This document shows positions 19,755-28,617 of a DNA stretch of 35,953 nucleotides, one piece after another; within the stretch, counting starts at the first letter, position 1, and every line of letters starts with the position of its first letter. Origin of the DNA: Saccharomonospora azurea NA-128 (lineage in GTDB: Bacteria > Actinomycetota > Actinomycetes > Mycobacteriales > Pseudonocardiaceae). The notes beneath the pieces were generated by a model. The model saw only the letters and a list, made by a program, of their open reading frames with translations. It had not been told where the DNA came from and made no database searches. The translations under genes were made by a program, and so were the position numbers. The DNA lies in assembly GCF_000231055.2 (NCBI RefSeq), contig NZ_CM001466.1, positions 4,950 through 40,902 of the forward strand, given 5' to 3'.

Positions 19755-19846
19755 CGGGCACGGTTGTGGGACGGGACGCCGAGGACCGCGCGAAACGAAG
19801 TCGGAAGCGACGGGTCGCGGTCCGTCGCGGGGAAACGTGCGGAATT

Positions 19847-19942
19847 CCTCGCGACGGCCGAGCCGTCACTCCTCGCGACGGCTGAGCCGTCACTCCTCGC
19901 GACGGCTGAGCCGTCACTCCTCGCGACGGCTGAGCCGTCACT
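19847..19942. repeat. Four tandem 24-bp repeats over the bldD stop codon
   Basis: Four head-to-tail 24-bp units (19847-19870, 19871-19894, 19895-19918, 19919-19942). The last three are identical and the first has one C for T change. Each contains the hairpin GACGGC-TGA-GCCGTC. Copy 4 includes the bldD stop codon. Read on the minus strand, each unit repeats the end of bldD (GAG GAG TGA), so four in-frame stops occur in series. It lies between the convergent nusB and bldD and could act as a terminator array for bldD. Confidence 0.9.
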
Positions 19943-20426
19943 CCTCGGTCGACGGCCGGGCTTCCGGGGGCAGCACACCCCAGTCGATGAGCTGCTCGGT
20001 CAGCTCGCCCGGGGTCATGTCGTAGATGATCGCCAGCGACCGCAGGTCCTCGGTGCGGATCGAGAGCACCTTGCCGTTGTAGTCGCCGCGCTGGCTCTGG
20101 ATGGTCGCGGCGTAGCGCGCGAGCGGCCCGACTTTCTCCGCTGGAAGCTGCTGCAGCCTCTCCAGATTGATCACGATCTTGGTGGCGGGTTCGGCGCCGG
20201 ACGGCACCCTGCCCTCGGGCAGCAACTCGACCACCGGAACCCCGTAGAAGTCGGCGAGCTCGGCCAGCTTCTGCACGGTCACCGCGCGGTCGCCTCGCTC
20301 GTAGGAGCCGACGACGACCGCCTTCCAGCGGCCACCCGACTTCTGCTCGACCCCGTGCAGGGACAGACCCTGTTGCTGGCGGATACCGCGGAGCTTGGCC
20401 CCGAGCGCCTTGGCGTAATCGCCCAT
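19938..20426 (-). CDS. bldD: Developmental regulator BldD
   Basis: A 162-aa DNA-binding protein closely resembling Streptomyces BldD, the c-di-GMP-dependent repressor of sporulation genes. The N-terminal helix-turn-helix (residues 5-70) carries LSLHGVEQKSGGRWKAVVVG and SYERGDRAVTVQKLAELADF. The C-terminal domain contains both halves of the c-di-GMP signature RxD-X8-RxxD: R113-G-D115 and R124-T-E-D127. I chose the ATG at 20426 by homology, with GGAG about 10 nt upstream. A BldD-box-like palindrome 67 nt upstream suggests autoregulation. It is divergent from the pyr operon; its 3' end is in a tandem repeat. Confidence 0.95.
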   Translation of the reverse strand: MGDYAKALGAKLRGIRQQQGLSLHGVEQKSGGRWKAVVVGSYERGDRAVTVQKLAELADFYGVPVVELLPEGRVPSGAEPATKIVINLERLQQLPAEKVGPLARYAATIQSQRGDYNGKVLSIRTEDLRSLAIIYDMTPGELTEQLIDWGVLPPEARPSTEE

Positions 20427-20505: not shown

Positions 20506-22194
<1,689 letters not shown>

Positions 22195-22202
<8 letters not shown>

Positions 22203-22272
22203 GGATTCTGGCCAGTTGCGGGCGCCGACCGGGTGCGGGTGTCCCGCAGGGAACGGAGGCGACCGTGACTGA
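22195..22272 (+). CDS. Micro-ORF 1 between pyrB and pyrC (25 aa)
   Basis: A GTG-initiated 25-codon frame overlapping the pyrB stop by 8 nt, with GGAGG 5 nt upstream. The peptide begins [13 protein letters not shown], like the PyrC N-terminus (MTED), and ends [10 protein letters not shown], like the PyrB C-terminus (GGDRD). It arose from the junction duplication. It is translatable on sequence grounds; no function is known, and it could simply be a by-product that passes ribosomes onward. Confidence 0.4.
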
Positions 22273-22381
22273 GGATTCTGGCCAGTTGCGGGCGCCGACC
22301 GGGTTGGGCCCCCGCTGCGGCACGCTGTGCGGCCGCAGTAGGGGAGGGTGTCCCGCAGGGAACGGAGGCGACCGTGACTGA
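22265..22381 (+). CDS. Micro-ORF 2 between pyrB and pyrC (38 aa)
   Basis: A GTG-initiated 38-codon frame starting inside the end of micro-ORF 1 and ending inside the pyrC start, with 8-nt overlaps at both ends and the same GGAGG. The peptide shares its first 13 and last 10 residues with micro-ORF 1. A 13-codon insertion brings additional Cys and Arg residues ([12 protein letters not shown]). The insertion keeps the frame. No family was recognised. Confidence 0.4.
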
Positions 22382-23678
22382 GGATCGGGCCGGCAGCGTG
22401 CTGCTGCGGCAGGTGCGGCTGTATGGCGAGGGCGAGCCGGTCGACGTCCTCGTCGCGGATGGCGTCATCGCCGAGATCGGGCGGATCGACCCGCCGTCCG
22501 GCGCCGAGGTGATCGAGGGTGAGGGGCAGGTTCTGCTGCCCGGCTTCGTCGACCTGCACACGCACTTGCGTGAACCGGGCCGCGAGGACACCGAGACGAT
22601 CGACACCGGTTCCGCCGCGGCGGCGTTGGGTGGTTACACGGCCGTGTTCGCCATGGCCAACACCGACCCGGTGGCCGACAACGCGGTGGTGACCGACCAC
22701 GTGTGGCGCCGGGGCCGGGAGGTCGGTCTCGTGGACGTGCATCCCGTGGGTGCGGTCACCGTGGGACTGGCGGGCGAGCGCCTCGCCGAGATGGGCACCA
22801 TGGCGAACTCCGCCGCGGGGGTGCGGATGTTCTCCGACGACGGGCACTGCGTCGCGGACCCGCTGCTGATGCGGAGGGCGTTGGAGTACTCGACGGCGCT
22901 CGGTGTGGTGGTGGCCCAGCACGCCGAGGAGCCGCGGCTCACGGTCGGCGCGCAGGCGCACGAGGGTGAGCGGGCCGCGCGCCTCGGGTACGCGGGCTGG
23001 CCGGCGTCGGCGGAGGAGTCGATCGTTGCCAGGGACTGCGTGCTGGCTCGGCACGCGCGGGCCCGGCTGCACGTGTGCCACGTGTCGGCGGCGGGCACCG
23101 TGGACGTGCTGCGGTGGGCGAAGGAGCAGGGGACCGAGGTGTCGGCCGAGGTCACGCCCCACCACCTGTTCCTGACCGACGAGCGGCTCGCGACGTTCGA
23201 CCCGGTGAACAAGGTCAACCCGCCGCTGCGCGCCGAGGCCGACGCGGAGCGGATGCGGCAGGCTCTCGCCGACGGGGTGATCGACTGCGTCGCCACCGAC
23301 CACGCGCCACACGCCCCGCAGGACAAGGACACCGAGTGGTCGGCCGCGCGGCCGGGCATGTTGGGCCTGCAGACCGCGCTGTCGGTGGTCGTGGAGACGA
23401 TGGTTCGTCCCGGCCTGCTCGACTGGCGCGGGGTGGCGCGCGTGATGAGCGAGCGGCCCGCCGAGATCGTCGGCCTGCCGGATCAGGGCAGGCCGCTGGC
23501 CGTGGGCGAACCCGCCAACGTGGTCCTGGTGGACGAGAAGGCGGAGTGGACGGTTCGCGGAGCCGAACTGGCGAGCCGGGCGACCAACACGCCGTACGAA
23601 GGGCTGCGGCTGCCTGCCGTGGTGAGCGCCACGCTGCTGCGCGGGCGTGTGACGTCGCGCGAAGGGAAGATTGTGTAA
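22374..23678 (+). CDS. pyrC: Dihydroorotase
   Basis: PyrC closes carbamoyl aspartate to dihydroorotate. A 434-aa amidohydrolase-fold enzyme of the class I type. Zinc ligands H62 and H64 are in [13 protein letters not shown]; other signatures are [32 protein letters not shown] and TDHAPHAPQ. The GTG at 22374 has GGAGG 5 nt upstream. It overlaps the end of micro-ORF 2, not pyrB, which ends 171 nt earlier. The stop TAA shares a base with the next ATG (TAATG). Confidence 0.95.

Positions 23679-25302: not shown

Positions 25303-28617
<3,315 letters not shown>

Follow-up and report, generated by a model that had tools for sequence, protein, structure and literature searches.

The junction between pyrB and pyrC of Saccharomonospora azurea NA-128 most probably carries two tandem copies, a short and a long one, of a MIRU-like, translation-transparent insertion element that is dispersed (probability about 0.8). 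We call 'the window' the whole stretch of DNA analysed, 35,953 nucleotides of contig NZ_CM001466.1. Judged by its sequence, the repeat is mobile-looking and scattered through many actinobacterial genomes. It lies mostly at putative Shine-Dalgarno/stop-start sites, and from the upstream stop onwards the predicted frame is as a rule stop-free and in most cases terminates within the following start.

The pyrB/pyrC junction

On the + strand of the window, GTGACTGA occurs only at 22195, 22265 and 22374, each time within an exact 24-mer, ACGGAGGCGACCGTGACTGAGGAT, located at 22183, 22253 and 22362 (Table 1). The first-pass annotation had described a stop-start overlap present three times with GGAGG at the same spacing, and the exact 24-mers bear this out. 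The micro-ORFs of 25 and 38 codons that it had seen chained from pyrB to pyrC were found as frames 22195-22272 and 22265-22381. Each starts inside the preceding stop and ends inside the following start, and the third start opens PyrC. The units measure 70 and 109 nt, so that the reported difference of 39 nt, a multiple of three, also holds; both lengths are 1 mod 3, as a chain of 8-nt overlaps needs. NCBIfam assigned PyrB to NF002032 (395.8 bits) and PyrC to NF006836 (741.3 bits), both over the cut-off, and also named PyrR among the neighbours, again over the cut-off.

Table 1. Coordinates of features at the pyrB/pyrC junction (positions of the window).
Feature	Positions	Strand	Remarks
pyrB, aspartate carbamoyltransferase, upstream gene	21261..22202	+	stop TGA 22200-22202; NCBIfam match
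24-nt repeat, copy one	22183..22206	+	GGAGG, start GTG 22195, stop TGA 22200
Element copy 1, short form	22185..22254	+	70-nt unit
Predicted hairpin H1 of element copy 1	22188..22226	+	holds start codon GTG 22195-22197; fold, covariation from relatives
Micro-ORF 1	22195..22272	+	25 codons
Core GACCGGGTGCGGGTGTCCCGCA of element copy 1	22227..22248	+	predicted hairpin H2 at 22234-22248
24-nt repeat, copy two	22253..22276	+	start GTG 22265
Element copy 2, long form	22255..22363	+	109-nt unit, core enlarged by 39 nt
Micro-ORF 2	22265..22381	+	38 codons
Long core	22297..22357	+	61 nt; extra predicted hairpin 22309-22344
24-nt repeat, copy three, at pyrC start	22362..22385	+	start GTG 22374
pyrC, dihydroorotase, downstream gene	22374..23678	+	NCBIfam match

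Elsewhere in the window, a 24-bp tandem repeat that itself contains an inverted repeat, TCCTCGCGACGGCTGAGCCGTCAC, is present in 4.5 copies next to a regulator-like gene (19846-19956); it is unrelated to the pyrB/pyrC finding.

The first-pass annotation had proposed comparing the junction in related genomes. It is readable in nine of the 12 genus genomes (the S. azurea genome, G000, included): five are filled with one or two copies (G000, G001, G002, G008, G011) and four are empty (G005, G006, G007, G010), G003, G004 and G009 being unreadable at this place. Copy number varies between species. An assembly artefact is unlikely, since relatives also carry copies at pyrB/pyrC.

Six filled junctions were followed, the five of Saccharomonospora and that of G123, from another genus, and the stop-start path is unbroken in all six, while frames and peptides differ. 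The overlaps are -8/-8/-8 in G000 and G123, -8/-4/-4 in G008 and -8/-8 in G002; G011 has a merged 48-codon frame and then -4, and G001 a single fused frame. In the latter (L197), the units are 72 nt long, so that the first start shares the frame of PyrC and the protein gains a repeated extension at its N-terminus. G123 (L390, 850-1250) shows the short-then-long order of the window, with units of 76 and 115 nt that are again 39 nt apart. Since frames and peptides change while the path holds, the peptide is not what is kept. The suggestion that the micro-ORFs make two short functional peptides is accordingly unlikely: the repeat is read in different frames across species (G000 versus G008) and is fused to PyrC in G001.

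Dispersal and continuity of reading frames

A search of the S. azurea genome, also proposed at first pass, revealed dispersed copies: with the 206-nt region as query, DNA matches were obtained in 11 places, the window being one. The core GACCGGGTGCGGGTGTCCCGCAGG, allowing at most three mismatches, was found in nine places of this genome and its reversed control in none. With a covariance model, 12 places scored at E<=1e-3, and the weaker matches include the two long-form copies at 27204 and 1633377. The genome has about eight sites of the repeat: pyrB/pyrC, gltB/gltD, nuoE/nuoF, nuoG (inside the gene), pheS/pheT, zwf/opcA, ~726 kb (three copies) and 4260780; gene names other than the pyr names and nuoF were assigned by reading protein sequences. 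The stop-start chain noticed at pyrB/pyrC is thus real and recurs at other operon junctions. Its supposed origin as a lone local duplication did not hold, the units being tandem members of a dispersed repeat family whose 22-nt core is conserved.

Matches were found in 12 of 12 genus genomes and in 50 of 150 sampled family genomes (the S. azurea genome included in both), covering 24 of the 46 genera of the family sample, and controls gave 0 in either set. At the level of the order, covariance-model matches at E<=1e-3 were present in 24 of 249 genomes, though a few of these matches (L250, L251, L252) resemble chance hits within coding sequence. The named collection comprises at least 120 stretches in at least 17 genera among the matches listed, including Nocardia, Amycolatopsis, Saccharopolyspora and Myceligenerans (Micrococcales, another order). 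Tandem copies are spaced start to start by 67-77 nt in 54 of 62 cases; the long unit of the window has 109 nt. Against Rfam, positions 21000-23500 of the window had no hit at any E up to 1, and six loci yielded a single sub-threshold match, lying outside the element. Of four 13-mers taken from the core and its edge, none occurs in the literature searched, which covers few subscription papers. A description of this repeat was not found in that literature either, most subscription papers lying outside it.

To describe position at gene junctions, we used a path test demanding an upstream ORF of at least 100 codons, a stop-start overlap, one or more micro-ORFs through the repeat, another overlap and an ORF of at least 100 codons. 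It replaced an earlier, looser overlap test that 24% of random positions passed. The full path is present in 100 of 153 arrays, a figure that includes 64 of the 94 arrays from the named collection, among the matches listed; random positions drawn from the same loci passed in 117 of 5000 cases (2.3%). In a second set, selected on model score, the path is complete in 57 of 84 arrays and at 129 of 3000 random positions (4.3%). This set covers 84 of 88 loci, 80 fetched and 8 from the S. azurea genome, since four had no anchor and were left out; the loci belong to 13 of the 24 model-matched genomes. Among its 27 failing arrays, ten have the left overlap only, five lie in frame inside coding sequence and 12 are other or unclassified. 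The test makes errors in both directions: the in-frame nuoG copy counts as a pass, and nuoE/nuoF and pheS/pheT of S. azurea count as failures although both are connected when followed.

Five S. azurea sites besides pyrB/pyrC were followed by script and all are connected. The succession is -8, a merged 85-codon frame and -8 at gltB/gltD; -4, 38 codons and -4 at nuoE/nuoF; a start right after the stop, 23 codons and then an overlap at pheS/pheT; -4, a merged 64-codon frame and -4 at zwf/opcA; and -4, 19 codons and -4 at 4260780 (L218, 1510-1570). The copy at 4260780 keeps its -4/-4 chain with the core hairpin absent, so this hairpin is not needed for the layout. At a borderline match, 2402140 in the same genome, the start overlaps the upstream stop and directly opens a 285-codon ORF.

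Start-to-start length at single-copy sites with 4-nt overlaps is 2 mod 3 in 38 cases, 0 in 10 and 1 in 4 (n=52, a count that leaves out 31 arrays without a recognisable right-hand start). The classes that keep the path (2, restart; 0, fusion) hence make up 48 of 52, versus 2/3 expected (p=1.4e-5). The micro-ORF frame is open in 164 of 170 cases, and the other two frames in 123 and 135. The length expected for two restarts was observed in 14 of 23 two-copy arrays, and that expected for restarts in one of five three-copy arrays. Tandem spacings at 4-nt-overlap arrays (n=39) are 2 mod 3 in 18, 0 in 17 and 1 in 4; as 0 occurs about as often as 2, merged frames are as common as restarts. GTGACTGA aids the chain because each arriving frame either stops over the start, with a 4- or 8-nt overlap, or continues in the frame of that start. 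As all three frames are caught in this way, continuity at pyrB/pyrC needs only freedom from stops, which weakens the frame argument there, not at plain ATGA/GTGA sites.

Hairpins and insertion sites

The 5' side of H1 contains the micro-ORF start codon and nucleotides before it. Its first six nt can all pair with the inner arm, G-U being accepted, in 123 of 176 instances, compared to 22% after swapping arms between sites, and the arm holds an exact reverse complement in 44 of 176 instances versus 296 of 17290 swapped ones. Considering only instances with at least 5/6 neighbouring pairs (n=155), the four nt upstream of the start pair with the arm extension at a mean of 2.84/4, against 1.79 (sd 0.07) when shuffled. 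When arms were swapped within genomes, 11/13 pairs were reached by 42 of 83 own arms and by 77 of 524 swapped arms, 8 of which scored zero, probably because of unknown bases. The instances in these tests (176, 155 and 83) were not hand-picked; tandem copies or related genomes are among them, so they cannot count as independent.

In a 40-row alignment (A1), the covariation score is 0.295, against 0.128 (sd 0.011) for shuffles and at most 0.079 for slid controls. The rows were hand-picked from 60 listed, with plain arms favoured, which inflates the 97.7% of paired cells. Pairs changed on both sides, one of five measures, number 4 versus 3.0, and 50 of 500 shuffles did as well. Among the non-Watson-Crick cells of H1 in A1 there are 27 G-U, 18 of them at one pair, versus 1 A-C, an excess that points to RNA of the coding strand. 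Ungapped conservation between copies of one genome is 0.41 in the arm and 0.40 in the loop, values compatible with copying of the target as well as with compensatory change. The fold energy of the window's units stands out modestly from shuffles (z -1.3 to -2.2; 6 to 17 of 200 shuffles fold equally well); around the pyrC start the predicted folding is unremarkable, being equalled by 181 of 200 shuffles. The core hairpin H2 is almost invariant and so shows little covariation; in the 726 kb copies both its sides are changed (TGTGGG...CCCACA). In the long form a larger hairpin takes the place of H2; all 19 distinct sequences found are longer by 39 or 33 nt, both multiples of three.

The H1 arms therefore co-vary and fit the local site: the 3' arm pairs with the start codon and the few preceding nucleotides, which vary from site to site. 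An ordinary explanation for this fit is compensatory change after insertion. We consider it unlikely that base pairing with the target guides the choice of insertion site, or that the arm is copied from the target during insertion. If either were true, a short sequence, perhaps moving via an RNA form, would find ribosome start sites by pairing and rebuild coupling on landing.

Filled and empty forms of one site are found at nuoE/nuoF, filled in nine of the 12 genus genomes and empty in three (G001, G002, G006); the empty sequence in G001 reads GGAGGTGGAGGCGAAATGACAGCGGAT. In G000, the insert stands directly after ATGA and is flanked by an 18-nt target repeat, GAGGTGGAGGCGAAATGA, which is single in the empty G001 and G002. 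The repeated target takes in the Shine-Dalgarno sequence together with the stop/start; among the other filled genomes, some share a shorter flanking stretch. At pyrB/pyrC, the empty congener sites differ in sequence from the filled site, so that an exact target repeat cannot be delimited. The nuoG insert (L303, L313) is in frame, adds about 24 residues at the same place in G000 and G005, and is absent in the other 9 of 11 genomes read; a clear target repeat was looked for at this insert and not seen. Of the seven arrays in G044, five (L351, L352, L353, L370, L371) are in frame within genes whose sequence reads GTNAHVILEEAP or a close variant, which we take to be a polyketide synthase motif. 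The inserts in L351, L352 and L353 follow GAGGAGGC, a Shine-Dalgarno-like stretch within coding sequence.

Proposed mechanism, alternatives and known repeats

We propose that a ribosome would end pyrB at 22200, restart at once at 22195 and translate 25 codons, then restart at 22265, translate 38 codons and restart at 22374 for pyrC. With such a chain of restarts, insertion would not cut pyrC off from pyrB, and the element would be tolerated because it is translation-transparent. H1, folding around the micro-ORF start, would keep free ribosomes off and leave the micro-ORF to ribosomes coming from upstream; the start of pyrC itself is predicted not to be strongly folded. The micro-ORF peptides would be by-products. 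pyrC may also be initiated independently, its start looking open in the predicted fold, and a tuning of PyrC by the units is possible. How the element affects PyrC and how it spreads are both inferred. Junctions that occur naturally in an empty and a filled state, for example within Saccharomonospora, could gauge how far chained micro-ORFs carry ribosomes, and the co-varying start-codon hairpin has a testable role in coupling or target choice. Short ORFs and odd N-terminal extensions annotated at such junctions call for caution, as they may be element sequence.

Three exact 24-mers in tandem might simply reflect duplication in place of the pyrB/pyrC overlap, with no dispersed element involved, and the copy number differing between species implies that local duplication of units does occur. 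However, the same core is found at gltB/gltD, nuoE/nuoF, pheS/pheT, zwf/opcA, other S. azurea sites and in many genera, which makes this explanation very improbable; in its strict form, local duplication only, it is refuted by the dispersed copies with the same core in the S. azurea genome. Another possibility, which we hold to be rather doubtful, is that the element is kept for regulation, its hairpin and micro-ORFs setting the ratio of the flanking proteins or responding to ribosome state. The strong covariation of the start-codon hairpin speaks for such a role, as does the presence of the element, as read, at nuoE/nuoF, gltB/gltD, zwf/opcA and pyrB/pyrC in more than one genus. Yet it is patchy within one genus (empty at 3/12 nuoE/nuoF and 4/9 readable pyrB/pyrC junctions), the flanking operons have no obvious common function and some copies lie in frame inside genes.

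These in-frame insertions, in nuoG and in putative polyketide synthase genes of one genome, would rather suit a miniature transposon of MITE or Rickettsia-palindromic-element (RPE) type, moved by a host transposase and fitting into open frames by chance. So would the target repeat at nuoE/nuoF, of a kind described for RPEs and MITEs (available part of PMC10969869). The ends of the element are, by eye, a direct GGAGG-type repeat and not inverted repeats, and most arrays lie at stop/start overlaps, not in gene interiors; we regard this origin as possible but somewhat unlikely. Descent from the mycobacterial MIRU family is quite improbable. Both share a layout in which short units lie at stop/start overlaps and carry a chained micro-ORF, and the mycobacterial 53-bp units examined are also 2 mod 3. 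Against this, the covariance model, run with filters off, finds no significant match at 10 of the 12 senX3-regX3 loci, including those with 53-bp arrays (best E=0.027, in L294, off any array), and a scan of 40 mycobacterial genomes turned up nothing beyond weak and scattered matches, 21 at E<=0.1 spread over 16 genomes, which by eye lie in coding sequence. Our preferred reading remains that of two copies, in tandem, of a MIRU-like, translation-transparent dispersed element.

MIRUs are, in the available parts of the sources, dispersed units of 40-100 bp (PMC2734929) that appear mobile and insert at start codons, with an internal ORF coupled to the next gene at -4 nt and probably little effect on its expression (PMC12548453, a 2025 review). 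Three 77-bp units are described in M. tuberculosis H37Rv, and two of 77 bp plus one of 53 bp in CDC1551 (available part of PMC4213456); both lengths are 2 mod 3. In the 12 mycobacterial loci that we fetched, 53-bp units form a -4 chain at senX3-regX3 in two (L291, L297). The present element resembles MIRUs as a dispersed short unit, often in tandem, that stands at start codons with a micro-ORF overlapping both neighbours (57 of 84 and 100 of 153 arrays). It differs from them by the absence of a detectable sequence relation to the fetched 53-bp units, by its conserved 22-nt core, its long form bearing a second hairpin, its overlaps of 8 nt and the in-frame position of some copies within genes, and by a start-codon hairpin fitted to the site, the MIRU side being judged by one fold. 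The element thus appears to work like a MIRU, descent from MIRUs being without sequence support.

RPEs are described, in the available part of PMC10969869, as short repeats of about 150 bp with a conserved peptide, able to insert in frame in protein-coding genes. Some copies of the element likewise lie in frame inside genes, whereas its spacings are mostly 67-77 nt, its arrays are mainly at stop/start junctions and its reading frame is not conserved, frames and peptides differing at pyrB/pyrC where RPEs have one conserved peptide and frame. With MITE/REP-type repeats it shares small size, dispersal, hairpins and a target site duplication, found at nuoE/nuoF. It differs in that terminal inverted repeats were not seen by eye in the aligned units, and strand and position are tied to translation. 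Together, these comparisons suggest that MIRU-style insertion at gene junctions, with a rebuilt stop-start link, extends beyond mycobacteria, to at least 17 genera among the matches listed.
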